DNA of 35,217 nt, taken from positions 1 through 35,217 of IMG/VR virus record IMGVR_UViG_3300028400_000020, one strand, 5' to 3'. Each line of letters begins with the position of its first letter. Within the stretch, counting starts at the first letter, position 1. The notes under the pieces were generated by a model. That model searched no databases. It was not told the DNA's origin and saw only the letters and a program-made list of their open reading frames with translations. A program made the translations under genes and the position numbers. The stretch comes from a virus. Of this stretch, positions 6,241-25,184 are shown piece by piece.

Positions 6241-6630
6241 TTATTGCCATAACATATTCGTAACCCTTACCACGGCTTCTGGTTGAAAAAGCACACTTAA
6301 ATATTCAATAGCTCTCTTAACATCCTCAACATCTATCCGCTTGCAACTAGAAACCTCAATTCTTATATATCGTTTTTCGGGCCATGTATGCACACAGCAA
6401 TGACTTTCCAAAAGACCAATCATACCAGTATGCCCCACAAGGCCTGTACCGTTAACAGGAACAGTAAAAATTCCCATACTACCACCTATTGGCTTTAAAC
6501 CTAAGATTTTAGGCACATTCTCCAAAAGCCCTCTTACAATAGAATATCCAGTGGCTTCACGCTCTAATATATTTTCAGATAAATAAACATCGAAACCAAT
6601 CGTTTCCCCATTAATTCTATTCTCTGACAT
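6241..6630 (-). CDS. speD: S-adenosylmethionine decarboxylase proenzyme (SpeD-like)
   Basis: This 129-residue protein has the core of the bacterial pyruvoyl-dependent AdoMet decarboxylase family, whose usual length is about 115-140. The self-cleavage site is present as E75-S76 in LLESHCCVHTWPE: S76 would become the pyruvoyl group. H81 and C96 (in EVSSCK) occupy the places of the processing histidine and the catalytic cysteine. Active enzyme makes decarboxylated AdoMet, the aminopropyl donor for spermidine. A spermidine synthase homologue lies further along the same late operon. Some SpeD homologues have changed into ornithine or arginine decarboxylases, and that cannot be excluded here. The start has GGAGGTATATTT before ATG and overlaps the upstream gene by 14 bases. 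Confidence 0.88.
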   Translation of the reverse strand: MSENRINGETIGFDVYLSENILEREATGYSIVRGLLENVPKILGLKPIGGSMGIFTVPVNGTGLVGHTGMIGLLESHCCVHTWPEKRYIRIEVSSCKRIDVEDVKRAIEYLSVLFQPEAVVRVTNMLWQ

Positions 6631-6781
6631 AAATATACCTCCTTTTTGCTTTTATAAAAACTAACACCTGGTAACAAGAACCAGTAATACAATACAAACG
6701 ATTGCCCCTTATTAATAATTCTTTTTTACAAGTAGGACACCTTTTCACTGATTTCAAAACACCTTCACTTATTTTTGCCAC
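6617..6781 (-). CDS. small zinc-ribbon protein
   Basis: A 54-residue frame is most likely read from a GTG at 6781, with GGGGGAAG just upstream; longer forms would run through the previous gene in another frame. The middle has C15-x2-C18-x12-C31-x4-C36 (CPTCKKELLIRGNRLYCITG, then SC), a classic zinc ribbon, followed by a basic strand-rich tail. It overlaps the upstream gene by 17 bases and speD by 14, so it is translationally coupled to both. The exact start is uncertain (a GTG further in is possible). The cysteine spacing equals that of two early-operon proteins at 16.5-16.9 kb, although the rest of the sequence differs. Confidence 0.65.
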   Translation of the reverse strand: MAKISEGVLKSVKRCPTCKKELLIRGNRLYCITGSCYQVLVFIKAKRRYIYVRE

Positions 6782-7238
6782 CTTCCCCCTGCACAAATAA
6801 CGGTACCACCTTTTTATCAAAATAAACTGGGGGCAAAAGCTGTTGCTTCTGTTCATCAGTCCAATACTCATCCCTGGGGCATAAATACTGATGCCAAAGT
6901 GGAGTAACCACACCTCCATATCTATCCCAACAAAAAAAACATTGCCCCACCCTTACCATATTAGGGCAAGCAGAACATTTTTTCCATCCAACCATTTTGC
7001 CTTTCGCCCTAAGGGGCAGGCCATCATCATCAAATTGAACGCTAAAAATAAAAGCAATAGTAAACAATATCCCCTTTGCTCTCACGGCCCTTCCTCTTGC
7101 TAATAAGTCAGCACCAATTCTCATTAAAAGTCCCTCACCCCCCTGAGTAAGAAACTCTTCTCTCCAATTAAATTTTTCACTCCATGGCATATATTCATTG
7201 ATAATTGTAGCAACATCAATATTACTTGCCTTAATCAT
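6765..7238 (-). CDS. unknown protein with rubredoxin-like zinc knuckle
   Basis: The 157-residue product has an N-terminal half of mixed helix (1-70) and a cysteine motif C88-x2-C91-x8-C100-x2-C103 that should bind one metal ion, followed by a tryptophan-rich segment. No family is recognised. It starts at an ATG behind AGAGGAGAAAATTT, overlaps the end of the first gene of the late operon by eight bases, and is followed by the small zinc ribbon. It is one of four metal-binding proteins encoded around speD. Confidence 0.7.
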   Translation of the reverse strand: MIKASNIDVATIINEYMPWSEKFNWREEFLTQGGEGLLMRIGADLLARGRAVRAKGILFTIAFIFSVQFDDDGLPLRAKGKMVGWKKCSACPNMVRVGQCFFCWDRYGGVVTPLWHQYLCPRDEYWTDEQKQQLLPPVYFDKKVVPLFVQGEGGKNK

Positions 7239-7728
7239 AAATTTTCTCCTCTATTTCTTTTTTTATGGCATCAGAAACATTTAAACATACCACATAAAAA
7301 GCAAACGGAATATTTGGTTGAGCCTTGTCTTTAAAATAGCAAATCTTCATGTTGTTATTGCAAATAAACGACTCTAAATAAAAGGGCCTATATTTCTTTC
7401 CTATGGAATTAACAGAAGGTAGGTACACATCATAAACAAAAACCCATTCATTTGGCTCTGAAAAAATATCAGGAGCAAAAACACCAACACCACAACCATT
7501 TACATATACCCTGCCTAGAAAAATAACAGGTAGAGCATCAGAAATGGCATCAGCTATTGTAATTACACACTTACTAATTTCTTCGTCTCTTATTTCTCCA
7601 AATCCAGAAACATCTAAACCCCTTTTAGGCGGAAAGCCCTTCCATGCTTTATGAAAAACAATTCTGCCATCAGTGTAATAAGGTGTACCAACAATATTGT
7701 TAATCTTGAAAAATTGCTTGTATTTCAT
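7231..7728 (-). CDS. unknown protein, first gene of the late operon
   Basis: This 165-residue protein shows no motif I recognise. The composition is soluble and globular, rich in aromatic residues and beta-prone (for example VIFLGRVYVNGCGVGVFAP in the middle), with a charged helical C-terminus. The start has a very strong GCAGGAGGTAAAAG site and lies about 19 bases downstream of a perfect consensus promoter, so it should be among the most strongly expressed proteins. Being promoter-proximal and next to a cluster of zinc proteins, a role in takeover of the host or in late regulation is possible, but this is only inference. Confidence 0.7.
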   Translation of the reverse strand: MKYKQFFKINNIVGTPYYTDGRIVFHKAWKGFPPKRGLDVSGFGEIRDEEISKCVITIADAISDALPVIFLGRVYVNGCGVGVFAPDIFSEPNEWVFVYDVYLPSVNSIGKKYRPFYLESFICNNNMKICYFKDKAQPNIPFAFYVVCLNVSDAIKKEIEEKIYD

Positions 7729-7746
7729 CTTTTACCTCCTGCCCCT

Positions 7747-7775
7747 ATTATAAGACAAGACATTAATAATGTCAA
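7747..7775 (-). promoter_or_regulatory. consensus sigma70-type promoter of the late operon
   Basis: On the minus strand, TTGACA (7775-7770) is followed after exactly 17 bases by TATAAT (7752-7747), a perfect match to the bacterial housekeeping promoter. The start codon of the first gene lies at 7728. It faces the terminase, portal and capsid genes and is the only good promoter I see for them. A perfect promoter without control would fire early, so repression through the palindrome in its spacer is plausible. Confidence 0.85.
7759..7773. promoter_or_regulatory. 15-bp palindrome in the late promoter (operator candidate)
   Basis: GACATTATTAATGTC is a perfect palindrome around a single central base. 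It covers the last four bases of the -35 box and most of the spacer of the late promoter. A dimeric repressor bound here would block RNA polymerase. No repressor gene is recognisable in the genome; the protein could come from one of the unknown early genes or from the host. Confidence 0.55.
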
Positions 7776-7998: not shown

Positions 7999-8001
7999 TT
8001 A

Positions 8002-8049: not shown

Positions 8050-8112
8050 ATTTATCTAATAAAATCAGATACTTACAAACCAAATTTTAATTTTGGTACA
8101 TTTATGGTTTTC

Positions 8113-8227: not shown

Positions 8228-10282
8228 TTATTGCTTTTTAAATTCTGTTTTTAGCACTTCTTTAATTTCATCAAGATTCATTTCCTCAAGCCAAGGATAC
8301 CTCTCCCTTATTTCCTGCCTATTTGCTAAGAGCATGGGATATTCCTGGATTATGTTTTTTAAGCCAGATAATGCCGTAGAGCCATTATAATTTTCGTTAT
8401 ACCCACAAAGGGATATAAACCCTATGTTCCTTTGCGTGCTGTGCCTAGAATTATGCAGGTGGCAATTATACAGCCAAAAATGGGAAAATGAGAGGTGTTT
8501 ACTTGTCTTAATTAAATCTTTGATTTTCACATTTGGGCAACCTTCCAATATCCATGCCCTTGTTATATCTAGACCAAGAGCGGTTTTAATGGTTTGCATG
8601 GCTAATTGGTTGCCTTGATATTTATCAATGTTTAATATTTTTTTATTCATACATCCTTCAATGAAGGCTTTTATATGCAAGGGTGAAATTAGTTCCACTT
8701 GTTTTTGTTCATCATGTGCTTGAAAAATAAACCTTATCCTACCAAGGGCTTGGATTATTTCTGCATGATCTAGCATTAAGGCCATATATTTTTGGGAAAA
8801 TTTTAAAAATATATCTTTGGCAGTTTCATCTTTTATCGCTTTGGCAATCTCAAAGCCTCTTAGCCTTGCCATGTTATTATAGATTAGGGCCATGCTTACT
8901 TTGGGGCCTATGTAGTGTCCAAGAACAAGGATACAACCCTTACAATTTTTATACTTATCAAGTCCTCTAATATCTCCGTAATGTCTAAGGAATATTTCTG
9001 TATCTTTGGGCATGTTTCTTTTGGATGTTATGGCCCTGGCAAGCTCTGGATTATCTGCAAGGATTTTTTTTGTAATTACAAGCACTTTTCCACCATTGTT
9101 AGCAATATTTCTTGCTCCTGTTCTAATGCATTTTATAAGCTTCTTTTTTTTGCGCTTGTCTCTTAATATCTTTTCCGCCTCTGCTTTCCCCCCTTCCCAT
9201 TGTGTGTAATTGATGTTTAATTCTTGTTGCACCGTAATATTTTTGCTCACTAGAATTTTTCTTTTTCTTGCCATAAATGGTGCTGTTGCATCCAAGATAA
9301 TTGAGGGGTGGTGAATTTCTCTAGTGATCCCGTAAGGAATATAAATTTGGTTTTGATATTTTCCTTTTTGTCCGAAAAAAATCGTTCCATTTACAGGGCT
9401 TGCCTTAACAACAGACCAAATCTCTGATGGAATCAGGAATTTCATTTTAAGTTTCTTTTTTAGTAAGTTCTTATGGTGAAATATTCCTGCTTCTTTTAGT
9501 TCTTTTTGTCCTCTTATTATATAGACAGGAGTATCCCCCCATGTAATAAAGTCATTAAAAGTAGATATGTTATTGTTTGTTTCAGAGGCTATAATAGTTT
9601 CTTTATATGTTTTTAATTTTGCTTCAATAACTTGAAGCATTTCTTTTGTCTTTGGAAGTTTAAGTAAGCAAGTTTGTTCTACTTGTTGTATGATGTTTTG
9701 CAAGTCATCAAAGTTTATACCCTTTATTTGCACTTGTGGTAGTTCGTCATATATTAATGTTGCTCTGAATTTTTTAACTTTCATCATGGTCTTAGCAAGG
9801 GCATGAGTAGTAAAAACAACTGGTTTATCTTTGGCTTGCTCTATTCGTTCTTTGAAGGGACATTTTTCTTTACAGTTTGGACACAAGAAGTCTGAGGGGT
9901 TAATCCCGTTTTCTATTAGGTGACTAAAGAAAAAGGGGTCATGCTTGCACTCTTTTGGCTCCCTGCCAAAAACTATAATGCCTTCTGTTTTTTTTAGGCC
10001 CATATTCAAGGCCCTTTCGTAAATATCCGTAGCCAGTTCTTTTGTTGGGCAGGCCATTATTACGTCATAGGCAGTGGTGTCATCAATGATAGCTTCCAGG
10101 ATTGCGTGTGTTTTACCCAGTCCAGTGGGCATGGAAAGAATATATGATTCTTTTAGCGGAGCGGATTTGATTAGTAATTTTGCTATTCTGGATGCCTCTG
10201 CCCTTGCTTTTGTTAGATCAAATGCTTTAAAGGGCTTGACATTGAATAGGTGTGTGTTTATCTTCTTTTTCAAAGAAAACAA
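8228..10282 (-). CDS. superfamily 2 helicase, DinG/XPD-like with four-cysteine cluster
   Basis: The 684-residue protein has Walker A MPTGLGKT (51-58), motif II YDELP (178-182, a DEAH-box variant), and the motif VI run IIQALGRIRF near residue 490. Between Walker A and motif II stand C112, C134, C137 and C141, where XPD, DinG and relatives hold a 4Fe-4S cluster, and VFTTHAL matches the motif after that cluster in the same group. It should unwind DNA at the phage fork or origin. It is the last gene of the replication operon and reads towards the origin-like region. The start is a TTG, six bases after AGGAGGTAACGA. The C-terminal 150 residues are not recognised. Confidence 0.82.
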   Translation of the reverse strand: MFSLKKKINTHLFNVKPFKAFDLTKARAEASRIAKLLIKSAPLKESYILSMPTGLGKTHAILEAIIDDTTAYDVIMACPTKELATDIYERALNMGLKKTEGIIVFGREPKECKHDPFFFSHLIENGINPSDFLCPNCKEKCPFKERIEQAKDKPVVFTTHALAKTMMKVKKFRATLIYDELPQVQIKGINFDDLQNIIQQVEQTCLLKLPKTKEMLQVIEAKLKTYKETIIASETNNNISTFNDFITWGDTPVYIIRGQKELKEAGIFHHKNLLKKKLKMKFLIPSEIWSVVKASPVNGTIFFGQKGKYQNQIYIPYGITREIHHPSIILDATAPFMARKRKILVSKNITVQQELNINYTQWEGGKAEAEKILRDKRKKKKLIKCIRTGARNIANNGGKVLVITKKILADNPELARAITSKRNMPKDTEIFLRHYGDIRGLDKYKNCKGCILVLGHYIGPKVSMALIYNNMARLRGFEIAKAIKDETAKDIFLKFSQKYMALMLDHAEIIQALGRIRFIFQAHDEQKQVELISPLHIKAFIEGCMNKKILNIDKYQGNQLAMQTIKTALGLDITRAWILEGCPNVKIKDLIKTSKHLSFSHFWLYNCHLHNSRHSTQRNIGFISLCGYNENYNGSTALSGLKNIIQEYPMLLANRQEIRERYPWLEEMNLDEIKEVLKTEFKKQ

Positions 10283-10285
10283 TCG

Positions 10286-11881
10286 TTACCTCCTTTCTTG
10301 ATTATTTTCTTTGGAGGGGAAAATCTTCCCCTCCTTCCCTTTTTTAACATTCCTGCAAACCCAATTTATAACATTTCTCCTGTAATTGTCGTTATCATAA
10401 TTCGCTCTCCATTCTCCAGGGGATTTTCCCATTCTATCGCAATTTTTCATAACTTCTCTTAATTCTTGCATCATTTCCTTACGGCTGTATCCATATTTTC
10501 TCATTGCAATAGCAAAATCAAGTATTTGCTTGTGGTGGCCTTCTGCTCCTATTTTTTCACGTTTTTCTTTAAGAATTTTTTCTATCATCCTATTATTTTG
10601 TTGTTTTTTGGGTATGATTGAACCGTCCTTGTTTTTATGCCATAAGCCTTTTTGGGTGAAAATTTTTTCTCTATTTTTGATATATGGCAAGTGGGGTCTT
10701 AGGTAGGAAAAATCAAGGTCTTGTCTTTCAGATAATTTTTCTTCTTTGCCATAAGGTGAGTATTCAGGTGGCACACATCCATGTCTGATCCAATGGATAA
10801 GGTAGATATTATCTAAGTCTTTTTGGGTTACCCATGACCATTCATTGCTATATTTTTTTTGAAATGTCTTAATGTTAAAATTTGTTTCCCATGCCAGTTT
10901 TTCTAGCTTTCTGTCCTTTTCCCACGCTATTTGCCACCATGTTTTGGGTTTTGGTGGATTTTCATAGACATTCCTTTGCCAGCTAATTTCACTAACATCA
11001 AGGGAATATCTATTTAAAATGCAAGCAGGATATTTTCTTTCTATGATAAAGGCTCTTTGGATTTTGTTTTTTTGTGATCTTAGGTCTTTTGGCGGACTTA
11101 TTGCTATGGGGTGGCAGTGTTTATAGATGTTTGTGTCTATTTCTGGGAATCTGTTTTTACACGCCATAGCTGTTCCTATGATTTTATTTAGGTGTACCCC
11201 TGGTATTAGCTCCCACCAAAGACGAAAATAATACTTACCTTCTTTACCAGGAAGGCCCTGGCTTGCTGTAAACTGTACTAGGCACCTACTTTCTGTTAGT
11301 GTTTTTATGGGTAGCCTTTCAAGAAGTTCCATGGGCGATAGTTCGGAACCATCCACATCCATTACAAGTAGGGTTTGCAAATCAAAACTATGGATGATAT
11401 TGCGTATAACCCATGTTTCTTCATCTGTTATCTGGACATCCTCTCCCCTGATAAACCAATCAACAAGTCCCATTTGCTTGTTTAAAAGTGGGGGCCATTC
11501 TGGATGCTCTTCTATGGGATATTTAATTCTTCTTAATTTTCCCGTTGTGTACCAGAGAGGCCACCCATAAATAAAAATCAAATCTCCTGGATTATTCATT
11601 AAGAGTAAAAGGGTATCTAGGTCAAGGTAGGTAATTTCCCAATCATAGAGCACTGGAAATTTTGGTTTTTGTGTTGTTCCATCTGGCAAGATTATTTTGT
11701 TGGCGTTTTCTGGTTTGCCTGCTCTTAGTAAAATATGATCTCCATATCTGGGTATAGCCCATCTTTTAAATTTAGGGTCTTGTATTTTATCGAATATTTT
11801 CAGAATGTTACTATGCGTTACAGAGTCGATCAGTTCATCATAGGGGTTAGGACGGCTTAGGATTTGGTTGATTAAACTCAT
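10286..11881 (-). CDS. probable primase or primase-polymerase (AEP-like)
   Basis: This 531-residue protein is encoded immediately upstream of the helicase, four bases apart. Around residues 171-180 it reads LLVMDVDGSE, which resembles the catalytic hhhDhD motif of archaeo-eukaryotic-type primases. About 30 residues on, FTASQGLPG followed by YYFRLWWEL resembles the second motif (SxSxG then a basic residue and strand). The C-terminal 120 residues are helical and basic and may be an accessory DNA-binding domain. No DNA polymerase gene is visible, so this may prime for host polymerase. The start at 11881 follows AGAGGATGCA. A strong hairpin terminator stands just before it. Confidence 0.55.
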   Translation of the reverse strand: MSLINQILSRPNPYDELIDSVTHSNILKIFDKIQDPKFKRWAIPRYGDHILLRAGKPENANKIILPDGTTQKPKFPVLYDWEITYLDLDTLLLLMNNPGDLIFIYGWPLWYTTGKLRRIKYPIEEHPEWPPLLNKQMGLVDWFIRGEDVQITDEETWVIRNIIHSFDLQTLLVMDVDGSELSPMELLERLPIKTLTESRCLVQFTASQGLPGKEGKYYFRLWWELIPGVHLNKIIGTAMACKNRFPEIDTNIYKHCHPIAISPPKDLRSQKNKIQRAFIIERKYPACILNRYSLDVSEISWQRNVYENPPKPKTWWQIAWEKDRKLEKLAWETNFNIKTFQKKYSNEWSWVTQKDLDNIYLIHWIRHGCVPPEYSPYGKEEKLSERQDLDFSYLRPHLPYIKNREKIFTQKGLWHKNKDGSIIPKKQQNNRMIEKILKEKREKIGAEGHHKQILDFAIAMRKYGYSRKEMMQELREVMKNCDRMGKSPGEWRANYDNDNYRRNVINWVCRNVKKGKEGKIFPSKENNQERR

Positions 11882-15358: not shown

Positions 15359-15459
15359 AAAAATGGTTACTTGAAGCTGCGATAAAATCCCTGCTTTGGA
15401 TAGCCTGGAAGGTGTTGACATCCAAAGCAGGGCAAAAACATTTAGGCAAGGTTGATTAA
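15355..15459 (+). CDS. 34-residue amphipathic peptide at the end of the lysis cassette
   Basis: The ATG overlaps the previous stop (ATGA). The peptide begins MKKWLLEAAIKSLLWIAWKV and is an amphipathic, tryptophan-containing helix with a basic tail, as expected for a small membrane-active or holin-type peptide. The coding sequence contains a perfect 12-bp inverted repeat that looks like the terminator of the facing minus-strand operon, so selection on that hairpin could also explain some of the sequence. Its stop overlaps the convergent gene by four bases. Confidence 0.5.
   Translation: MKKWLLEAAIKSLLWIAWKVLTSKAGQKHLGKVD
15384..15432 (-). terminator. terminator of the first early operon, inside the convergent small ORF
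   Basis: CCCTGCTTTGGA (15389-15400) and TCCAAAGCAGGG (15421-15432) form a perfect 12-bp stem with a 20-base loop. On the minus strand it lies 24 bases after the stop of the last gene and is followed by ATTTTAT, a short U-rich tail. On the plus strand the following bases are A-rich, so it should act on the minus strand only. Confidence 0.65.
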
Positions 15460-15803: not shown

Positions 15804-15857
15804 TTTTGTTACCTCCTTTTTATTTTACTTTAAATGTAAGCATTATTGATTTGAGTT

Positions 15858-16346
15858 TCAAATCTTTGCGGGTTCAGGATTATGGAAAATACTTGGTTGG
15901 GTTATTGATTGAAGTTTTTTGATGATTATTTTGTACTTTTTCTTTTTTTCTCCAGCTTTTAAAACTCTTTCTCTTATTTCTTGCATTTTTCTTGCATATT
16001 CTTTTAAATACTCCATGAGCCTGTCTATATTGTCTTGATTCCAGGCTGTGCACTCCAGGTATAGTTCCAACATCTTGTTTTTATTGGTCAAGAAATCAAC
16101 AATTTCCTGGTAATCCACTTTTGCTTGTCCATGTCCGCCTATTGCTGTCATCTCTGTTTGTGCATCTGCAATAGCCCTTTCTATAATAGACCATATGAGT
16201 AAGTGTTCCCCTCTTTCTTTGGGCCTTATTTCGTCCATTGGTAACAGTGCATTTAGTGTTTTGAGCATGGCGTTTTTTAATGGCAGGGCCTCTTTCTTAA
16301 TTATTTCTCTCTGTTCCTTGCTCCTACTAAATTTAGCGGTTGCCAT
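15858..16346 (-). CDS. unknown early helical protein
   Basis: The start at 16346 follows AGGAGGCAAAAAC and overlaps the small membrane protein gene by 14 bases. The 162-residue product is helical. Residues about 50-65 read LLIWSIIERAIADAQ, and about 88-112 read FLTNKNKMLELYLECTAW followed by a short helix. This combination recurs in small phage proteins I have seen described only as hypothetical. The C-terminal 50 residues are lysine-rich. No enzyme motif is visible; a DNA-associated role is possible. Confidence 0.65.
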   Translation of the reverse strand: MATAKFSRSKEQREIIKKEALPLKNAMLKTLNALLPMDEIRPKERGEHLLIWSIIERAIADAQTEMTAIGGHGQAKVDYQEIVDFLTNKNKMLELYLECTAWNQDNIDRLMEYLKEYARKMQEIRERVLKAGEKKKKYKIIIKKLQSITQPSIFHNPEPAKI

Positions 16347-16494
16347 GTTTTTGCCTCCTTGCGCCAATAAAAAACAAGAAAAAGATTACTAGGTTATAAA
16401 AGGCCAGTTTCCAGTCATGCCAGTTATAACAGTGGAAAGAAAGAATAAAAAAGATTATTGCCCATAAGCTTATAATATAAATCCAGTCCAACAT
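16333..16494 (-). CDS. 53-residue protein with two membrane helices (holin candidate)
   Basis: This short gene starts at an ATG preceded by GGAGGTAATC, two bases after the upstream stop. Residues 3-20 (DWIYIISLWAIIFFILSF) and 31-44 (AFYNLVIFFLFFIG) are hydrophobic, separated by a tryptophan-rich turn, and the C-terminus is basic (ARRQKHGNR). This is the plan of a small class II type holin, though it lies in an early operon and away from the endolysin. A superinfection-exclusion or membrane-modulating protein is the other reading. Confidence 0.65.
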   Translation of the reverse strand: MLDWIYIISLWAIIFFILSFHCYNWHDWKLAFYNLVIFFLFFIGARRQKHGNR

Positions 16495-16496
16495 GA

Positions 16497-16688
16497 TTAC
16501 CTCCTTTTATTTTTGCCATAAGGACATACCTCCCAAAGTGCACAAGAAGATAATTGGCAATCGCCTATTCTGTTTCTTATCCTGTTTGGGCCTATGCACT
16601 CACGGCAATTTGGATTAACAGTGCATAGCGTGTGAATTGAGTTTTTATTTTTGGTTTTATTATGCACTCTGGTAGTTTTTGCAATCAT
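16497..16688 (-). CDS. zinc-ribbon microprotein A
   Basis: The 63-residue basic protein has C28-x2-C31-x12-C44-x4-C49 followed by ALW, with extra cysteines at 22 and 55. The next gene upstream encodes the same core, so the two are tandem paralogues, overlapping by 29 bases. The pattern (C-x2-C, about a dozen residues, then DC-x4-CPLW) belongs to a widespread but uncharacterised phage zinc-ribbon type. The start has AAGGGGATCACGAAAA before ATG. Confidence 0.72.
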   Translation of the reverse strand: MIAKTTRVHNKTKNKNSIHTLCTVNPNCRECIGPNRIRNRIGDCQLSSCALWEVCPYGKNKRR

Positions 16689-16902
16689 TTTTCGTGATCC
16701 CCTTACTGTGTGGTCTTACATGCCACAGGGGGCAGTCGAACACTTGGCAGTATTTTGTCCTTTTTGTCCAGTTCTCCCTACCGTTGCACTCATAACATTT
16801 AGCATTAATTGCAAGACGCAAGGAATAGGGATTCTTTTTCAATTTTTCCAGTGGGTTTTGTTTTTTGGCTCTTTTCTTTTGGGCCTTGCTTTTATTTTTC
16901 AT
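16660..16902 (-). CDS. zinc-ribbon microprotein B
   Basis: The 80-residue protein begins with a very basic segment (first 24 residues rich in K and R) and then has AINAKCYEC, with C36-x2-C39-x12-C52-x4-C57 ending FDCPLWHVRP. This is the canonical form of the phage zinc-ribbon type also found in the neighbouring gene and, shortened, at 14.9 kb. The basic arm suggests nucleic-acid binding. The start follows GGAGGAAGAA. About 140 bases without a gene separate it from the dUTPase stop. Confidence 0.75.
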   Translation of the reverse strand: MKNKSKAQKKRAKKQNPLEKLKKNPYSLRLAINAKCYECNGRENWTKRTKYCQVFDCPLWHVRPHSKGITKNDCKNYQSA

Positions 16903-17041
16903 TTCTTCCTCCAGGAAATAAGTCTGTGCTGTTATTTTTTAGAGCTTATTTAAACAAGGGTAAAATCCTATATCTATTGGCATATCCGTTTAAAATAATA
17001 GCTCTACAGCATTAAAATTGGAACGCTTGGCATTTTCTTGT

Positions 17042-17611
17042 TTAGCCTGTGCTCCCAAAGCCGTTACTTCCTCTTTCGCTGTTTGGTAGATTCTGTACTC
17101 TTATCGGTTCTCCGAGCCAACAAGGTGAAATGACAAGCTGTGCTATTCTGTCACCTTTTTTTATGTACCAGGGACGATCAGATAAATTGTGTGCTATTAT
17201 CCATATTTCCCCACGATATCCAGCATCAATAGTGCCAAGTAGTACTGAGTATCCTTTAGCTGTTAACCCGCTTCTTGGCCTTACGGTAGCCTCGTATCCA
17301 TAGGGTAGGGCAATAGATACTCCAGTAGGTATTATGCCTATTTTTCCAGGATCAACAATAGCATCGCAAGAAGCTCGCAAGTCCAGCCCTGCATCATCAG
17401 CGTATTGTCTTTTGGGTAGCAGAGCATCATCAGAACAGCGAATAAATATCTTTGGGGCACATACCTTGGCTCTTACTTGCTCTATCAGTTTGCGTATAAA
17501 GGCAATGGAGCAGGCACATTCTATCTTGCCTACTCCTTCTATCCAATCGCCTACTTTAATGTTCAATGGTTTATCACTTAAAATGTCTTTCCAGTATATC
17601 TTATTTCCCAT
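17042..17611 (-). CDS. dut: dUTP diphosphatase with N-terminal extension
   Basis: The enzyme hydrolyses dUTP to dUMP and pyrophosphate, keeping uracil out of DNA and feeding thymidylate synthesis. All trimeric dUTPase motifs are present: ADDAGLDLRA (71-80), RPRSGL (111-116), GTIDAGYRGEI (126-136), GDRIAQLV (153-160) and RGSNGFGSTG at the end. At 189 residues it is about 40 longer than usual: residues 1-50 form an extra N-terminal part (with WIEGVGKIECACS) of unknown role. It overlaps the upstream gene by 11 bases. Confidence 0.95.
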   Translation of the reverse strand: MGNKIYWKDILSDKPLNIKVGDWIEGVGKIECACSIAFIRKLIEQVRAKVCAPKIFIRCSDDALLPKRQYADDAGLDLRASCDAIVDPGKIGIIPTGVSIALPYGYEATVRPRSGLTAKGYSVLLGTIDAGYRGEIWIIAHNLSDRPWYIKKGDRIAQLVISPCWLGEPIRVQNLPNSERGSNGFGSTG

Positions 17612-18020
17612 TTTTCTTTTGCCTCACTTTCCTTTTTCTGCCGTTTTTATCTACTGTCACCTCTATCACCCTTATTGGTGGTAATATCCAAATGCCACTA
17701 AATAAGGCATGAGATACATCTTCATGCCCTCTATATGCTTTTATTTCGCCTTTTTGTTTGGTTACTATCATATCCAAGGCCTCATCTGTTACTAGGTTTA
17801 GGGCCTTTACCCATGAATCCAGGCCCTTATGTTGCTTCATAATCCTTCTTGGCGGTACGAAAAATTGAAGTTTGTTTTTGACTTTTACCGCCATGATATA
17901 ACCATGCCACAAAAGCAAGGTCTCATTTGGCTTTTTTATGCTGATTAGGCCCCTGCCTCGCAAGGTCTTATCCTGCAAGAAGGCAAGGGCAACTTCCTTA
18001 TTCGTTGGATATACTTTCAT
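17601..18020 (-). CDS. unknown early protein
   Basis: The 139-residue basic product is read from the ATG at 18020, ten bases after GGAGG; a TTG at 18026 is an alternative. It begins KVYPTNKEVALAFLQ, has a strand-rich middle and ends in a lysine- and arginine-rich tail. No motif is recognised. It lies between a DnaJ-like zinc protein and the dUTPase, overlapping both by a few bases, in what looks like one nucleotide-metabolism and takeover operon. Confidence 0.65.
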   Translation of the reverse strand: MKVYPTNKEVALAFLQDKTLRGRGLISIKKPNETLLLWHGYIMAVKVKNKLQFFVPPRRIMKQHKGLDSWVKALNLVTDEALDMIVTKQKGEIKAYRGHEDVSHALFSGIWILPPIRVIEVTVDKNGRKRKVRQKKNGK

Positions 18021-18300
18021 CGTCAAGTCGCCTCCATTTCGTTATATATCTTTCTCCCGTACAATCTTGGCAAGCAATGTATTTTTGTGGGATTTTTTCT
18101 CCAAAACGCAAAAAGTAATCTCTTTGTTGTTCCTCTGTGTATGGGCCCTTATATCCTCTCCTTTTTCTCCACTTGAAAAAACCTTCCCAAAGCGGATGTT
18201 CTACTTCTCCTGTGCCCTGGCAAATAGGACACTTTTGGACTGCCAGTATATAGGTTCCTTCTTTTTTAGGCGCAAAAGGTAGTGGTCTTATTTTGTCCAT
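17998..18300 (-). CDS. small protein with DnaJ-type zinc motifs
   Basis: The 100-residue protein has two half sites of the DnaJ cysteine-rich kind: C24-x2-C27 in KCPICQGTG and C77-x2-C80 in CQDCTGE, separated by a basic helical stretch with a tryptophan. One zinc ion held by the four cysteines is likely. Such mini zinc fingers occur in many phages with unknown partners. The start follows GTGGAGGTGCAACA, just after a hairpin with a T-run. Confidence 0.7.
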   Translation of the reverse strand: MDKIRPLPFAPKKEGTYILAVQKCPICQGTGEVEHPLWEGFFKWRKRRGYKGPYTEEQQRDYFLRFGEKIPQKYIACQDCTGERYITKWRRLDDESISNE

Positions 18301-18314
18301 TGTTGCACCTCCAC

Positions 18315-18347
18315 AAAAATAAGGGGAAACAGCAACGCCATTTCCCT
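18315..18347 (-). terminator. weak terminator or attenuator hairpin
   Basis: On the minus strand GGGAAA (18346-18341) pairs with TTTCCC (18329-18324) across an 11-base loop, followed by a C-TTATTTTT tail. It lies just after the stop of one small gene and overlaps the upstream side of the next ribosome binding site. The six-pair stem is short, so only partial termination is expected. Confidence 0.42.
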
Positions 18348-18356
18348 CGTTAAATT

Positions 18357-18590
18357 TTATCTCCTACCTATTGGCGTTTCAAAGGTCATCCCAACGGGCT
18401 TGTAACCGCTAAGATTTGGCAGATAAGTTTTATAAGATTCTCCATTTGGCAGGCAGGTAAAAGTCTCATTCCATATCGGGTACATTTCCAGGCCTATTTC
18501 CATGTTACATTTTGCCAGGAATCTTGCACTTACATTAGTTGCTACGCCTCTTGCCTCAATTTCGATAGCCTTAAAATAATGTATTGCCAT
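18357..18590 (-). CDS. unknown small early protein
   Basis: The 77-residue product begins with a strand (HYFKAIEIEARGVATN), continues with a helix and ends with a mixed segment containing two glycine-rich turns. No motif or membrane segment is seen. It has AGGGGTAACGAA before its ATG, a form of the site stereotyped in this genome. It lies between two other small proteins under the 18.92-kb promoter. Confidence 0.6.
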   Translation of the reverse strand: MAIHYFKAIEIEARGVATNVSARFLAKCNMEIGLEMYPIWNETFTCLPNGESYKTYLPNLSGYKPVGMTFETPIGRR

Positions 18591-18619
18591 TTCGTTACCC
18601 CTTTTTGGTTAGTTTTTAA

Positions 18620-18862
18620 TTAGTATCTGCATATCCATTTTTGTTTTCCAGGTAAGACGGGCTTTTCCCAATAAGGCAAATCTCTCAAAGGCCGTTTTTC
18701 TTTTTCGTTTACCTCAACTAGCCTTAACGTATCCCCGACATAGGCAGATGGCTCCAGAAGTAAGGTTGCCTTTGCCTTGGCCTGTCTGAGTGTGTCTGCT
18801 TCAATAGGTTGCCAGCCGTGCAAATTGTTTGTTGACCAAATTGTTGCCATATACTTTTTCAT
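18620..18862 (-). CDS. unknown small early protein
   Basis: The 80-residue product (first segment KKYMATIWSTNNLHGWQ) has a strand, then a helix IEADTLRQAKAKATLLLE, then a strand GDTLRLVEV, a compact alpha-beta unit, and ends with tryptophan-rich tail residues. I do not recognise the family. I chose the second ATG (18862), eight bases after GGAGG; the first ATG is only two bases from it. It is the first gene after the promoter at 18920. Confidence 0.6.
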   Translation of the reverse strand: MKKYMATIWSTNNLHGWQPIEADTLRQAKAKATLLLEPSAYVGDTLRLVEVNEKEKRPLRDLPYWEKPVLPGKQKWICRY

Positions 18863-18891
18863 TTTCATTACCTCCCCTTTCTTTTGGTTAT

Positions 18892-18920
18892 AATGTAATC
18901 TCTATTATCACTATTGTCAA
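18892..18920 (-). promoter_or_regulatory. early promoter 2
   Basis: TTGACA (18920-18915) is perfect and followed after 17 bases by TACATT (18897-18892). The 13 bases from the -35 box onward, TTGACAATAGTGA, are the same as in early promoter 1 at 19810, which points to common ancestry or common control. It serves the small genes from 18862 leftwards. Confidence 0.75.
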
Positions 18921-19011
18921 GGTTTATTTCAAATTTTTTGGGGTATTTTAAAATTATGCTAAGGGAATTATGTTGGTAGCGTAATTTTTGGGTAATTGGT
19001 TGGAAATGCTC

Positions 19012-19048
19012 ATAAAATCAGGGAAACGGCCACCCACCGTTTCCCTGA
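19012..19048 (-). terminator. terminator after the first early gene
   Basis: TCAGGGAAACGG (19018-19029) and CCGTTTCCCTGA (19037-19048) form a perfect 12-bp stem with a seven-base loop. On the minus strand it is followed by TTTTAT and lies 37 bases after the stop of the gene at 19085. The next promoter lies just downstream, so the first early gene is probably a separate transcription unit. Confidence 0.75.
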
Positions 19049-19084
19049 AATTTTACATTTCGTGTTACGTTTCTAAGAATTGTG

Positions 19085-19747
19085 CTACCATATCTCCACT
19101 GTTTCCAAGGTGTGCTTTTTGGGATCAGGCTGGGCTGGGATTCCGTGAGTATAGGCATATCGTATGGCGTTCGCTTCGCTTCGTGTCTGATAGCACCTAA
19201 GTGGGCTTGTACCCCTTATCGGTATAGAGAGCCCATCCATATCAACGCTTACAAAATGCCAATTTCCACCCTGTCCAGGTACTAACCACTCTTGGACTCC
19301 AGTTTTACTTACATGTAAATAAATAGGTACAATATAAGGTAGTGCCCATATAGCTGACCATTCATTTTGAATCGCCTTGCTCCACTCTTTCCACGGTATC
19401 CAGAGACGGTCAATATGCACATACCATACCTGTTTGATTTGGCGTATCTCTATATCTTTATCTGTCAACCCATACTCATACAGCAAATGGAACAAACCGT
19501 TGAGTCTTTCCTTGGTTGTCTGTGTCCGCCAGCCCGCATCAGATAGCCAAATGTCATTATACTTGTTTAACGGTTTAGGGCCTTCGGTGCTTACTTTCTT
19601 CGCTTTAGCAATGGTATGTCCGTGCAAAATAAGCTCATGTATCCAGGCGTTTTCAGGGCCTTTTTTAATCTTTGCGACAGTATTGTCTCCCGCAAAGTGT
19701 TTGCCGAGGATAAAAGCTTTTACTGCTCTTCTGGTGATTTTCCTCAT
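19085..19747 (-). CDS. unknown early protein, first gene from the strongest early promoter
   Basis: The 220-residue protein starts at 19747 behind AAAAGGAGATAACGAAA. The first 85 residues (RRAVKAFILGKHFAGDNT, later LILHGHTIAK, then TTKERLNGLF) follow a pattern known to me from small uncharacterised phage proteins, with the typical basic start, LHG strand and T-x-E-R-L-N-x-L helix. Residues 85-220 form a second part rich in tryptophan and tyrosine that I do not recognise, so it may be a fusion. It is expressed first and may act in host takeover. Confidence 0.65.
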   Translation of the reverse strand: MRKITRRAVKAFILGKHFAGDNTVAKIKKGPENAWIHELILHGHTIAKAKKVSTEGPKPLNKYNDIWLSDAGWRTQTTKERLNGLFHLLYEYGLTDKDIEIRQIKQVWYVHIDRLWIPWKEWSKAIQNEWSAIWALPYIVPIYLHVSKTGVQEWLVPGQGGNWHFVSVDMDGLSIPIRGTSPLRCYQTRSEANAIRYAYTHGIPAQPDPKKHTLETVEIW

Positions 19748-19781
19748 TTTCGTTATCTCCTTTTCTCTTTCTTTTAACCTT

Positions 19782-19810
19782 ACTATAAACATCATTGTCA
19801 CTATTGTCAA
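19782..19810 (-). promoter_or_regulatory. early promoter 1
   Basis: TTGACA (19810-19805), 17 bases, then TATAGT (19787-19782): 11 of 12 consensus positions match. The -35 region contains two copies of TGACAAT nine bases apart (on the minus strand TTGACAATAGTGACAAT), repeated with one change at early promoter 2. This may be a binding site for a regulator of both early promoters. The gene start lies 35 bases downstream. Confidence 0.85.
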
Positions 19811-19862
19811 TATCTATTTTTCAAAGACTCAAGCTGTCCGAGTAGAGATAAAAAGAAAAAAG

Positions 19863-19875
19863 TTAATAATTTCAA
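19863..19875 (-). repeat. distant copy of the origin repeat core
   Basis: The 13 bases TTGAAATTATTAA, the core of the origin iterons at 7.9-8.1 kb, occur here on the minus strand, about 55 bases upstream of early promoter 1. A chance match in AT-rich DNA is possible, but the position next to a promoter makes joint control by the same protein conceivable. Otherwise the 19811-19970 stretch holds nothing I can name. Confidence 0.4.
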
Positions 19876-19970
19876 GTAGTTATGTAAAAATCAGGAAAAA
19901 GCTTGACTTTTGGCAGGTCTTTGTTAGGGTAGGACACGAGGTTTGTATTTCATTCCACCATACCACCCAC

Positions 19971-20003
19971 TAAAAAGGCAGCCCCGTTTCGGCTGCCTTT
20001 TGC
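19971..20003 (-). terminator. terminator of the late structural operon
   Basis: AAAAGGCAGCC and GGCTGCCTTTT form a perfect 11-bp stem with a seven-base loop, followed on the minus strand by TTTTT. It lies 26 bases after the stop of the last late gene. The plus strand also ends in four T residues, so some bidirectional action is possible. Confidence 0.9.
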
Positions 20004-20016
20004 ATTTAAATGCAAA
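19999..20016. promoter_or_regulatory. 18-bp perfect palindrome
   Basis: TTTGCATTTAAATGCAAA is a perfect palindrome between the last late gene and the terminator stem, overlapping the edge of the latter. It could be an operator, a resolution or pausing site, or a second hairpin that stabilises the mRNA end. Confidence 0.55.
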
Positions 20017-20028
20017 GCGTTCAGGTTT

Positions 20029-23000
20029 TTAGTAAGGATAAACCATTTTGCGCCTATCCAGGCCGATTTGTTTCAAAGCAGCCCTTAAAGCCTTAACGTT
20101 TATTGGCCTGAACCCATATTTCATTGCCCACTCATTATAAGCTACAATTTCTCGCACGGCCTTATCCACTTCCCCTGCTCTTAACGTTTCATATATCAAT
20201 TCCCGTTTCTTACGACTATATTCCCTCATATCTCTATAGCGCCGTTCATTTTCCCACATTTGGCTCTCCCTAGTGGGCACGAAACCAAGGGAACGTAAAA
20301 GAGCCTCTTTCTCTGTGTATTTAAAAGGCACAGGGCCCTGTTCACCGTAGTAATATCTTGGTACGCCTGTTCTTGTCCTTGCTCCGTAATCGTGCAAACG
20401 CACTGCCTTAATTACATTACGCACTACGGCAGGGCTTATTTTTTCTGCTCCCATGGCAATACGATATGGGTCTTTGGTTTCTGCTCCTGCCACTATATCC
20501 TTTAGTCCAGTTGCCATATTAAGAATAGTGCTACCAGTGGCCCCTAAAAGCTCATTCAACATATCCTTAGCACTTTCCACGTTGCTGAACGGAATATCTA
20601 TCTGCAATGAGGGGCTTAAATCTATGCCAACAGCAACAGGTAAACCTCTGTTTATTACCATAATTGCCTTGTCGCTTAATCCTGCCTTTTTCAACTCACT
20701 ATCAACATCAATCCCATAATCCTTACGCAAGTGGTGTTTTATGGCCTTGACGAACGGGTAAGCGGATAAACCACCCAATGTGCCTACCATTGCTATGGAT
20801 TCCAGGAGTGCCTTATATTCCTTTTCATCTAGTAACTGTTTCCACAATGATAATAAGTGCAAAGTGTATTGTCTGAGCGTAAGCCAAGTCTTACCTAGTG
20901 GCGTGCTTGCCCATAAGGGCAGGTTGGCCTTGCCATACAAAAATTGTGTCTTATTTACTGCATCTGCTGCAATGTTCCAGGCTTCATCAAATGATTTGCC
21001 CGCTTTCCTTGCAAGCCTAAAAGCAGAAAGGAAAGTGCTACCCCTATTAAGATACTCTGAGCTTGATATAGGCAAAGACAAGATTTTGCCTACTTCCCTG
21101 CCCATTTGTGCTGCCCCTGTTTCAGCAGCAAGCATCTCCTCTACAAAGGGATCATCAATAACCTTGCGCCTTAACGCAAGCATAAAGGCTTTTGCTTCAT
21201 CAGGCGCAAGATGCTTTACATCCTTCTTAATAAGGGCCTGGGCAGTATCTTTCATAGCCTTGAGCAAACCCCCTTGGATACCCTTTTCTACCCCCAATCT
21301 CTTGCCCAAAACCTTTAAGTAAGGATTGGCAGTTATAATATTCTGGGTTGCGTTCAAAACAGCAAAAGCAGGTTTGCCAGCAAGATAATATCCGTACGCA
21401 AGCTGTCTTAGCCCAGCAAAGGCTCTGTCTGTTTTGGTAGTATTTTCTAATATTCGCCTGGTATAGTCATTCAGGAATCTGAAAAGCTTAGGCTTCTTTA
21501 AGGCATCAAACTTAGACAACAGGTCTGCATAATCCTTGGCTGCCATTACTTTGTGCGTATAACCTGTAAGGCCACCAACGTATCTGGGTAACACCTTCAG
21601 GACATCATCCTCATAACCGCCTATCCAATAAGGGGAACGGTGCAATAAATGCCTGCCAAAGCCCCTAGACGCAAACAGCTCTCCAAGGCCCTCCCTAAAG
21701 GCTTGAGCCGATGCTTCATCTATTTTTCCTTTTTGCACAAGGCTATCCAATAATGCACCCACATTACTGGTGGCCGTTACTCGTTCAAACGGTGCACCCT
21801 CTGGCCACTCTCTTACAGGCTCTACTACAAAATCAATATTTTGTGCCCTTGTCCTAAAACCTGTCGGATTAAGGGCCTTATCCTTGCCAATAAGGGCCTC
21901 TAGTATTTTCTGCTTCTTGCCCTCCAATTCCCATGCTCTTGCAGGCTCACGCCACAAGGCCTTGCCATTAACTTTGTCTTTAGCAACTATCCAATATTTG
22001 CCCGCACTTTCTGGTCTTTGCCTTGGAAAGTAGCCCTTATTGCCAAACAGGATTCTTTTAATCGCCTGTCCAGCCTCATCTCTACTCATACCAAGGGTTT
22101 TGTAATGCTTGCCAATAAAAGCAGCCAAATAGTGGCCGCTAGTATCTACTACATTACGAATACGGTTATAAGCATCAATCACTCTATCTGACACATTCCA
22201 GGCTCTTAATTGCTCTTCTGGAATACGCCATGACACGGTTCCATCGGGCAAGATAACCTTCTTATTAAATCGTGAGTAAATATCACCCAACTTTATTACC
22301 TGGGCCAATATCTGTTTTTCATTTTTGTCCAGACCAGGCAGAGTAGAGCGGCCAAAGGCATCTATTACTCCCTTGCCTCCTGCATGAAGTATCCTAAAAC
22401 TGTCTTCATGTCTGCCAAACATCCTAGCAATTTCCCTATCTAAAAAGGGCTTTGCCTCTGGATGCTTAGTGCTAATATATTCCACATTCGTTAAGAGCCT
22501 ATCTACTTCTGATAAATCCTTGGCACCCTTGGCTATTTTCTTGGCCTCTTTCAGGCTTCTCCACAACCGCCTCAAGTATGCAAAGGTTTTATGCGTTCCA
22601 GCAACGGCAGCAGGGGCTTTTACACCAGCTATTTCCTTGGCAATTTTGCCGATTTTGTAAGCCTTACTTATATCACTGCCTGCTTTTCTAATAACACTGG
22701 TGCCAAGAGCATGGCCGAATAACCCTACAAGTAAGCCCGCTATTGGATGTCCACTTGCCGCAAGAGCCTCATCCCCTATTTCTGATGCCTCAATCAATCC
22801 TGCATCCTTTAAGCCTTCCAGTGCAGTTTTTGTTATCGCCCATATTGGCTTCCTGGCTAACAGTTCAGGAGCAATGACAAGCTCTGCTGCTGCCTCCGCT
22901 ATGGGCAATTCCATTTGCAAGAAACGGCCCTCTACTCCGCCTTTCCATTCATGCCTGATTTCTTCTGGAATCTTATGTTCCAAATATTCCTTACCGTGAT

Positions 23001-23220
23001 AAACATAGGGAATAAGCAGATCATTGCTTTTAACGCCTGCTATTTTCTTTAATACTTGAAGGCCCTTTTGTGGATTCTTTTTTACCTCATTTAAAAGGGC
23101 CTGCTTTCTATCTTCTGGCAGGCCCCTAAAATAAGGACTACTCTCCTCTAATCTTTTTCTTATGAGTGGCAGCGGAAAACCATATAGAGTGTTTTTCTTA
23201 TCAATCCAAGGTGCATCCAT
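20029..23220 (-). CDS. large internal virion (ejection) protein
   Basis: At 1063 residues this is the largest protein of the phage and the last of the late operon. The middle and C-terminal parts match the podovirus large polyvalent/internal core protein type: at about 770-800 KSFDEAWNIAADAVNKTQFL then YGKANLPLWASTPLGKTW followed by a leucine-rich segment, then VAVGIDLSPSLQIDIPF. The N-terminus (DAPWIDKKNTLYGFPLPLI) is typical of a virion-anchored start. These proteins are carried in the head and ejected with the DNA to build the channel across the cell envelope. No lytic transglycosylase motif is visible. Start follows GAGAGGTGAGTA. Confidence 0.8.
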   Translation of the reverse strand: MDAPWIDKKNTLYGFPLPLIRKRLEESSPYFRGLPEDRKQALLNEVKKNPQKGLQVLKKIAGVKSNDLLIPYVYHGKEYLEHKIPEEIRHEWKGGVEGRFLQMELPIAEAAAELVIAPELLARKPIWAITKTALEGLKDAGLIEASEIGDEALAASGHPIAGLLVGLFGHALGTSVIRKAGSDISKAYKIGKIAKEIAGVKAPAAVAGTHKTFAYLRRLWRSLKEAKKIAKGAKDLSEVDRLLTNVEYISTKHPEAKPFLDREIARMFGRHEDSFRILHAGGKGVIDAFGRSTLPGLDKNEKQILAQVIKLGDIYSRFNKKVILPDGTVSWRIPEEQLRAWNVSDRVIDAYNRIRNVVDTSGHYLAAFIGKHYKTLGMSRDEAGQAIKRILFGNKGYFPRQRPESAGKYWIVAKDKVNGKALWREPARAWELEGKKQKILEALIGKDKALNPTGFRTRAQNIDFVVEPVREWPEGAPFERVTATSNVGALLDSLVQKGKIDEASAQAFREGLGELFASRGFGRHLLHRSPYWIGGYEDDVLKVLPRYVGGLTGYTHKVMAAKDYADLLSKFDALKKPKLFRFLNDYTRRILENTTKTDRAFAGLRQLAYGYYLAGKPAFAVLNATQNIITANPYLKVLGKRLGVEKGIQGGLLKAMKDTAQALIKKDVKHLAPDEAKAFMLALRRKVIDDPFVEEMLAAETGAAQMGREVGKILSLPISSSEYLNRGSTFLSAFRLARKAGKSFDEAWNIAADAVNKTQFLYGKANLPLWASTPLGKTWLTLRQYTLHLLSLWKQLLDEKEYKALLESIAMVGTLGGLSAYPFVKAIKHHLRKDYGIDVDSELKKAGLSDKAIMVINRGLPVAVGIDLSPSLQIDIPFSNVESAKDMLNELLGATGSTILNMATGLKDIVAGAETKDPYRIAMGAEKISPAVVRNVIKAVRLHDYGARTRTGVPRYYYGEQGPVPFKYTEKEALLRSLGFVPTRESQMWENERRYRDMREYSRKKRELIYETLRAGEVDKAVREIVAYNEWAMKYGFRPINVKALRAALKQIGLDRRKMVYPY

Positions 23221-24341
23221 TACTCACCTCTCAAAATTCTATCTAAATCATCTTCTGGCCCATATTCAGGTGGAGGCAACTTTGCCCATGGTGGTACAAA
23301 GGTAGCATCACCACTTTCATTAAGATACGGCATCATTGGTTGTTGTGACGCTTGATTCTGTTCAGATTGCACCACATCCGCACCCTCCGTAAGACCAAGG
23401 GCTTCCTTAACTGCATCCCATGCAGGATGTTCTTGTTCTCTGCTTGCTTCTGGTTCTGGCATAGATGCATGCATTGGAGGGGAAGGTGCCCCCACATCTC
23501 CGCCTATAAACCTATTTGCCTCTTCTATTAAAGCTGGTGACGTATTTGGCTTCCAAATATAACTATCCCCCCACGGGATTAAATAAGGGGCAAATTTGGG
23601 ATTCATGCTCAATTCCCTGAGCTTGTTAAGCCTTTGCTTCTCTTTTATCTTTTCAAGATACCAAAGGCCGAGGGCCTGTCTATAAAAATCCTGGGTATTG
23701 TTTCCTGGTTTGTTAGGCCCTGGAATTATCTCCACCTCACCCGTCTGCTGGTTAATTTTTGCCAAAGCCCCACCACTACCTATGGTCTTAAAAAGATACT
23801 GGGCCTTATTAGGGTCTTGCGCTAATTTTCCTGCAAGGCTCATAGTTTTTGTGACCATATCAAGCTGTCCAGGGTCTATACCAGACTCAACGGCAGCACC
23901 AAGTAAAGCCCCCGCAAGCTGTTGTGGCCTTAGCTTATCAGAGTGCAAGATTACCTGGTTAAACATCTTCATAAAGTTTTCCCACTTTGCCTGCCTGGTA
24001 ACATCCTGTTCATGCTGTAAATAAGCCTGTGTCTGCATTTCCAGCATTTTAGCCAAGGTACTAGCAAAGAGATTCTTATGAACATTCTCCCTAGCCATCT
24101 CTTCTGCGTACATTCGCCCTGCATCCCATGCTCCTGCCTGGGCTATGCCACGACCTATTGCCTTAGCCCCTAAAGCATAAGGGATAGCTCCTATTACAGC
24201 AGAGCCTAATCCTCTGATAAGGCTTCTCTTGGCTGCTTTATCTAAATCAGACTTAGGGTAAATAGCAGAAACATATCTTTCTGCTCTTTGCCTAGTTTTA
24301 TTTAGGTTTTCTGGTTCAAGCACCAAATCCATTATACCCAT
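23220..24341 (-). CDS. internal virion protein
   Basis: The 373-residue protein overlaps the large ejection protein gene by one base (TAATG) and is co-translated with it. Residues about 40-72 are glycine- and alanine-rich and hydrophobic (LIRGLGSAVIGAIPYALG), able to insert in membrane; residues 75-200 are long helices; the C-terminal third is proline-rich and low-complexity. This is the general pattern of podovirus ejection proteins. No enzyme motif is seen. The start follows AGGAGAGATGTATT. Confidence 0.7.
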   Translation of the reverse strand: MGIMDLVLEPENLNKTRQRAERYVSAIYPKSDLDKAAKRSLIRGLGSAVIGAIPYALGAKAIGRGIAQAGAWDAGRMYAEEMARENVHKNLFASTLAKMLEMQTQAYLQHEQDVTRQAKWENFMKMFNQVILHSDKLRPQQLAGALLGAAVESGIDPGQLDMVTKTMSLAGKLAQDPNKAQYLFKTIGSGGALAKINQQTGEVEIIPGPNKPGNNTQDFYRQALGLWYLEKIKEKQRLNKLRELSMNPKFAPYLIPWGDSYIWKPNTSPALIEEANRFIGGDVGAPSPPMHASMPEPEASREQEHPAWDAVKEALGLTEGADVVQSEQNQASQQPMMPYLNESGDATFVPPWAKLPPPEYGPEDDLDRILRGE

Positions 24342-24353
24342 AATACATCTCTC

Positions 24354-25184
24354 CTATACACCAAGGGCAATAGTATCTTCTGCCCATGCAGTAAAAGCAT
24401 CTTGTATCCCATCTATGTTGACTTCTTTTATCCTTCTTGCCCAAAAAGAAGATATGGACAACGCACTCTTGATTCCTGCTTCATCCATATACTGAATATT
24501 GTTTTCTTTTGCCCATAACGCTCTACCTGGCAAGGCCCCCTCTTTCAAACAGGCAATCATAAATACCTGAACACCTCTCAAAACACCATCCGCCTTTATG
24601 GGCCTCACAGTCCTAAATCCAGCCTTAACAAGTTCCTTGGCTATGAATTTATGTAACTTGCTCATTAAAATACTGCCTGCCTGTACCACCAAAACACCAT
24701 TTGGCCTTAAAATTCTGGCCAACTCTTTATATATGGTATCTGCACTAAATAACTTAGCAAGAGTAATGGTGGAAGGGTCTGGAAAATCAGCAAAAACCAA
24801 ATCAAATTTGTTTTTCCTTGCCTTCTTAACCCATCTTTTTGCATCGTCACAATAGACCTTCACTCGTTCATCAAGCAAAGAACCACCATTAAGAGCCACT
24901 AAATCAGGATGTTGCTTCGCCATATCCAACATGGTCTCGTCTATATCTACCAGAGATATACTTGCCTGGGGTATTTTGAGGGCCTCCCTTGCAGCGCAGC
25001 CATCACCGCCACCTAAAATTAATGCTCGCTTAGGTACTTCATGCAGGAACAGCCCACCACCATGTATAGCAACTTCATGGTAAATCGGCTCTGTTATGCT
25101 ATCCAATTGCACATAACCGTTTATCTCCAAGAGTAACGCAAGCTCTCCGCCTAAATCATGCTTGCTAACCTCTATTCTTTGCAT
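24354..25184 (-). CDS. speE: spermidine synthase (aminopropyltransferase) homologue
   Basis: The 276-residue protein has the aminopropyltransferase fold: Y35-H36-E37 in SITEPIYHE, the AdoMet-binding GGGDG at 58-62, acidic VDID at 80-82, D113-D114, and catalytic-type D133 in ADFPDP, where most spermidine synthases have DSxDP. It should move the aminopropyl group of decarboxylated AdoMet to putrescine or a related amine. The other enzyme, SpeD, is at 6.2 kb in the same late operon. It stands between two ejection-protein genes, a strange place for an enzyme. The C-terminal 60 residues differ from standard SpeE. Strong start AAGGAGGTGAT. Confidence 0.85.
   Translation of the reverse strand: MQRIEVSKHDLGGELALLLEINGYVQLDSITEPIYHEVAIHGGGLFLHEVPKRALILGGGDGCAAREALKIPQASISLVDIDETMLDMAKQHPDLVALNGGSLLDERVKVYCDDAKRWVKKARKNKFDLVFADFPDPSTITLAKLFSADTIYKELARILRPNGVLVVQAGSILMSKLHKFIAKELVKAGFRTVRPIKADGVLRGVQVFMIACLKEGALPGRALWAKENNIQYMDEAGIKSALSISSFWARRIKEVNIDGIQDAFTAWAEDTIALGV

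Follow-up and report, generated by a model that had tools for sequence, protein, structure and literature searches.

Does a small tailed phage carry its own two-step route to spermidine, and on what do its two enzymes act? The question is raised by the virus record IMGVR_UViG_3300028400_000020 of IMG/VR, whose positions 1 to 35,217 (35,217 nucleotides, hereafter the window) encode on the minus strand homologues of S-adenosylmethionine (AdoMet) decarboxylase (SpeD, 6241..6630) and of aminopropyltransferase (SpeE, 24354..25184), both on a single closed contig that also encodes terminase, portal and capsid proteins. A first-pass annotation had proposed that SpeD supplies decarboxylated AdoMet to SpeE, which turns host putrescine into spermidine. 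The two enzyme assignments stood up to our analysis, whereas the substrate and the acceptor had been assumed: phage SpeDs with shifted substrates are known, and this SpeE has no PSFGEWGF motif. The sequence shows the families to which both proteins belong, their catalytic residues and folds, the order of the genes and the purifying selection on SpeE; both activities, the acceptor and the benefit to the phage are inferred. Most likely, the two enzymes work, and late in infection they raise the level of spermidine or of a closely related compound. The fuller reading, with two acting polyamine enzymes in a late unit, putrescine as the most likely acceptor of SpeE and a raised spermidine supply, is held here with slightly better than even confidence.

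SpeD, a divergent homologue of AdoMet decarboxylases

The 129-aa product of 6241..6630 is a class-1b AdoMet decarboxylase homologue. It matched the Pfam family AdoMet_dc (PF02675) with E=2.5e-11 and 44.3 bits, above the gathering score of 25, whereas the match to the NCBIfam equivalog TIGR03330 (E 4e-10, 40 bits) stayed below the cut-off of 75.65; the protein is thus homologous, yet has diverged too far for its function to be called automatically. The catalytic residues pointed out in the first-pass annotation were indeed present: the cleavage site E75-S76, H81 in HTWPE, and C96 (S63, H68 and C83 in the T. maritima reference). The spacing from Ser to His (5) and from Ser to Cys (20) is identical in the enzymes of T. 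maritima and Aquifex and in the four phage SpeDs of S-PM2, P2559S, phiYS40 and phiN3, which are experimentally active (PMC9992855). Two near-invariant features of phage SpeDs, GxH near the N-terminus and Arg near the C-terminus, are missing, as they are in the active P2559S protein. Structure prediction, proposed earlier as a check, led to the same family: the AlphaFold2 model had a pLDDT of 91, and its top Foldseek matches were the Aquifex and T. maritima AdoMet decarboxylases (E ~1e-7). Since the alignment used by AlphaFold2 was composed of SpeD homologues, the model supports the SpeD fold and does not prove it. No close SpeD relatives were found in our searches, including one at class level.

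Arginine or ornithine is the substrate of some phage SpeDs (Li et al., PMC9992855), and substrate-shifted SpeDs are common across bacteria and archaea (Li et al.). The window protein could likewise be a pyruvoyl-dependent decarboxylase of ornithine or arginine, forming putrescine or agmatine, with SpeE then working on decarboxylated AdoMet from the host; in its SCK..D pattern and in loop length it agrees with the branch that holds SpeDC-like proteins. We regard this as quite unlikely. Four residues, Gln, Thr, Phe and Tyr, mark the ornithine decarboxylase SpeDC (PMC10407285), and we placed them, from the text and the sequences, at Ser-5, Ser-1, His+1 and Cys-6. None of the four is found at these inferred positions in the window SpeD, which has I, E, T and R instead; HTWPE is kept, and SpeE is encoded in the same genome, whereas the published substrate-shifted bacterial SpeDs were chosen by the absence of SpeE or the presence of a second SpeD. 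The markers are not infallible, since phiN3 SpeD, reported active as an AdoMet decarboxylase, has three of them; a protein of the putative host described below has all four. Pro occurs in HTWPE as well as in the loop before it, where the alignment is uncertain, and a Pro separates AdoMet decarboxylases from arginine decarboxylases in Fig. 8 of PMC10407285. Because the inferred SpeDC markers are absent, AdoMet decarboxylase appears to be the better call for SpeD than ornithine decarboxylase.

SpeE, a freed catalytic half under purifying selection

The 276-aa SpeE matched Pfam Spermine_synth (PF01564) with E=1.1e-26 and 94 bits (gathering score 22.9), while a PHROG search with it gave no match. 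The motifs named in the first-pass annotation were recovered as Y35-H36-E37, GGGDG (58-62) and D133-F-P-D136-P, and are invariant or conserved in our alignment, in line with the family patterns Y-H/Q-E, GGG(D/E)G and catalytic DxxDP. Aminopropyltransferases ranked first among the fold matches, with the Thermus enzyme at E=6e-17. The best named family was NCBIfam PRK03612 (6e-50), of which only the catalytic half, positions 252-491 of 522, was matched. SpeE begins at the YQRI position of four aligned long-form proteins and their C-termini coincide; it has no membrane half, and its open frame reaches only 3 codons further upstream. Because of this start and the shared end we conclude that SpeE, judged by its sequence, is the soluble catalytic half of a long membrane-fused aminopropyltransferase, set free.

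The sole close relative of SpeE that we found, 90% identical over the full length, lies on JALVMZ010000140.1 (L110, G058:C140), a 17.6-kb contig of a Desulfobacteraceae metagenome-assembled genome (MAG). This contig is collinear with window positions 15403-33446, and where the two align their nucleotide identity is 76-92%; because of this match it is a phage fragment, either binned with the MAG organism or infecting it. Between the two SpeE copies, synonymous divergence (dS) was 0.94 and nonsynonymous divergence (dN) 0.05, giving a ratio (w) of 0.053, as low as in the neighbouring virion genes, and the catalytic residues were unchanged. SpeE is therefore under strong purifying selection. In the same comparison, three paralogous fibre-like proteins (window 29027-31910) diverged fastest, with 58-64% amino acid identity vs 81-98% for the other matched genes.

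A second relative, in a genome of the same bacterial order (G086:C469), shares only the terminase large subunit, which is ~50% identical, and its contig ends before the SpeD position. Single-protein scans of IMG/VR with SpeE, SpeD, the terminase large subunit, the portal and a tail protein gave no relative, INPHARED gave distant matches only, and a phylum-level search with SpeE returned the same MAG contig and nothing more. Since the relatives sit in genomes of the Desulfobacterales, a sulphate-reducing host of this order is plausible for the window phage.

On another contig of the Desulfobacteraceae MAG (G058:C592, L113; 371-838, minus strand) we noted a SpeD homologue with all four inferred ornithine decarboxylase markers (QLIETS...HF...AYIDIFSCK). 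It adjoins multihaem cytochrome-like open reading frames (ORFs), and the normal SpeD of the MAG is encoded elsewhere. We had taken this homologue for degenerate and dropped that idea, since all four inferred SpeDC residues are present. A 'spermidine synthase' on MAG contig C10 was rejected as a donor of the phage SpeE, as it has no GGGDG.

Probable function of the pair

In the reading we favour, SpeD would cleave itself at E75-S76, which yields the pyruvoyl form, and decarboxylate AdoMet, and SpeE, the soluble remnant of a membrane-fused aminopropyltransferase, would aminopropylate an amine from the host, most likely putrescine, so that spermidine is formed. The extra spermidine may serve phage translation, replication and possibly packaging. 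Normal phage replication needs spermidine in several hosts, partly via translation (PMC9992855). That the purpose is DNA packaging through charge neutralisation, as the first-pass annotation argued, is speculation; a general spermidine supply is as likely.

A number of observations weigh against this reading. SpeD forms the longest branch of the SpeD tree, is at most 29% identical to any of its rows, and has LR756501, L019 and the second MaAM05 SpeD as nearest rows by path, none of them a known AdoMet decarboxylase. These nearest rows belong to the SCK..D group; the tree did not resolve, and SpeD could not be placed in it. The C-terminal 56 residues of SpeE were modelled with low confidence, and the segment preceding YQRI is missing. 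In both phage SpeE copies, GVLRGVQVF stands in place of PSFG(E/D)WGF, which is present in all four aligned long-form homologues. The genes for SpeD and SpeE are unlinked, the JALVMZ010000140.1 fragment stops short of SpeD, and a second genome that keeps both together was not found in our searches for relatives. Finally, the putative host MAG encodes a SpeD, a SpeDC-like protein and a SpeE of its own, so that the phage pair would add flux and not a new pathway.

Could one or both genes then be decaying passengers without activity? The very long SpeD branch would fit such decay, and for SpeD there was no relative with which to run a selection test. We consider it very improbable: SpeE has a w of 0.053, the catalytic sets of both proteins are complete, and each gene is preceded by a strong ribosome-binding site, AAGGAGGTGAT-ATG for SpeE and AAAGGAGGTATATTT-ATG for SpeD.

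The changed segment bears on the acceptor. In enzymes of this class we take PSFGEWGF to belong to the acceptor side, as in spermidine synthase structures, and because it is replaced, putrescine should not be assumed. SpeE may be active with agmatine, cadaverine, a longer polyamine or an unusual acceptor instead. Consistent with this, GVLRGVQVF is shared by two copies of a strongly selected protein, bacterial aminopropyltransferases vary in their acceptors, and motifs fail to separate spermidine synthases from aminopropylagmatine synthases. The residues that bind decarboxylated AdoMet and those of catalysis are, however, intact, and acceptor specificity is not readable from sequence. On balance, a different acceptor seems unlikely, though far from negligible. 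The bolder version, in which an acceptor site re-tooled on the freed catalytic half and supplied with the phage's own decarboxylated AdoMet would yield a non-standard polyamine or aminopropylate an unusual acceptor late in infection, is likewise unlikely, and a shade more so. The changed segment in an otherwise strongly conserved SpeE offers a clean test of whether an ordinary polyamine or another compound is made.

Probable late unit and genome context

The two genes lie 17.7 kb apart in a 35-kb genome, and the first-pass annotation had placed them on the same strand in one late unit running across the circular junction. Our data fit this. The first 167 bases of the window repeat 35051-35217 with one mismatch, and the overlap falls inside the major capsid gene (34740..35217 + 2-568, minus strand; phrog_1328, 6e-41), which is thereby joined from two parts; because of the overlap the map is closed at ~35.05 kb. 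The repeat resembles the assembly overlap of a circular map and not a physical terminal repeat.

Nearly all main genes of the window are on the minus strand, as are all features described here. A putative sigma-70-type promoter with a perfect TTGACA-17-TATAAT (7775-7747; ~0.02 expected per window) precedes the SpeD/terminase unit, and the first ORF after it (7231..7728) had no Pfam match. The order from the promoter is then SpeD, terminase, portal, a scaffold-like ORF, capsid, the junction, tail and virion genes, SpeE, large internal proteins and a terminator-like hairpin of 13 pairs with a T tail (19048-19018), which ends the block. The genes of this proposed unit are tightly packed, and from their order we infer late expression of SpeD and SpeE. 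The terminase large subunit (3836..5143) was identified by PF03237 and phrog_2 (2e-38) and the portal protein (1575..3470) by phrog_1216, whereas the probable small terminase subunit (5130..5564) was assigned by position only, with no family match.

SpeE indeed stands among virion and putative ejection genes, much as had been proposed. It is separated by 9 bases from the virion-block ORF directly upstream (25194..27275) and by 12 bases from the ORF directly downstream (23220..24341), which is, by position, a putative ejection protein. Next comes a putative internal or ejection protein of 1063 aa (20029..23220; phrog_11358, 4.5e-29; phrog_10089, 3e-17). Its matches are very large phage proteins, including a DarB-like one, and the similarity is to their C-terminal parts. 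The two ORFs upstream of SpeE (25194-28224) have a stretch in common with 28-34% identity, which suggests a duplication within the virion block.

The late position also bears on the idea that the drain on AdoMet is itself the purpose, weakening methylation-based defences as phage AdoMet lyases do. SpeD would use up AdoMet and SpeE would remove the product, and a phage AdoMet lyase did appear very low in the SpeD fold list (rank 50, TM 0.41). This fold match was not significant, SpeE would be superfluous, and anti-restriction genes are usually early, whereas this unit looks late. We therefore judge this idea extremely improbable.

Further tailed-phage markers are an SU10-type adaptor, an Erf-like protein, a RuvC-like resolvase and a dUTPase. 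The dUTPase (17042-17611) has an N-terminal extension of ~55 residues and is 95% conserved in the related phage. Since no tape measure protein was recognised among the window proteins and large internal or ejection-like proteins come after the fibre genes, a podovirus is the best call for this phage on its gene content.

Comparison with known SpeD/SpeE pairs

The first-pass annotation had considered a SpeD/SpeE pair in such a small podovirus to be notable. As a phage pair it is not new: clustered SpeD and SpeE were described in 2023 in an uncultured Caudovirales phage and two phycodnaviruses, and the phage and Heterosigma virus enzymes were active in E. coli deletion strains (PMC9992855). Like the window, these genomes combine a class-1b SpeD with SpeE, but there the genes are clustered, whereas ours are unlinked, lie in a podovirus and include a SpeE of the long-form type. 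A 41-kb IMG/VR contig, IMGVR_UViG_3300041411_000403 (L006, G001), which belongs to a siphophage as judged by its tail tape measure and central fibre proteins, likewise has both genes on one small tailed-phage contig; unlike in the window, they are adjacent, and its SpeE is ~33% identical to the window SpeE over the core. In its region 9146-11158, a QueC-like gene is found immediately ahead of this SpeE-SpeD pair; a link between spermidine and queuosine exists in E. coli translation (PMC9992855). Two apparently related jumbo records of IMG/VR, 372 and 497 kb long (L007/L010, L096/L097, L099/L100), each encode one SpeE and two different SpeDs far apart, and in one of these SpeDs TSH replaces ESH at the cleavage site.

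Among 50 SpeD-bearing virus records checked, 3 had SpeE, and both of the 2 contigs inspected look bacterial. The adjacent SpeD-SpeE genes of L014, L022 and L025 were set aside as phage evidence: L014 and L025, the two inspected, appear bacterial because both carry FolE2 and L014 also PhoH, CsgG and a guanylate/adenylate cyclase. The speH-speH-speE-speB cluster of the deposited jumbo genome MaAM05 is of cellular type and was not relied on. Thus, SpeE is rare in phages, and a SpeD/SpeE pair is rarer but already known.

At the protein level, the window SpeD has the catalytic Ser, His and Cys and the spacing of the class-1b SpeDs of S-PM2, phiYS40, P2559S and phiN3, but is very divergent from them. 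With SpeDC and SpeDA (PMC10407285) it shares fold family and cofactor, and with SpeDC the SCK..D pattern as well, while the inferred SpeDC markers set the two apart. The catalytic domain of the long-form proteins (PRK03612, NF002956) aligns end to end with the phage SpeE at 33-44% identity, DFPDP included; unlike them, SpeE has no membrane half of ~250 residues, starts at YQRI and has no PSFGEWGF.

With the window, the known range of phage-encoded spermidine pathways comes to include a tailed phage among the smaller ones. Its lineage occurs in genome bins of Desulfobacterales, and the two steps are retained in it as unlinked late genes. Compared with the known pairs, what is new is the unlinked placement in a 35-kb podovirus, the long-form origin of SpeE and its changed acceptor segment.

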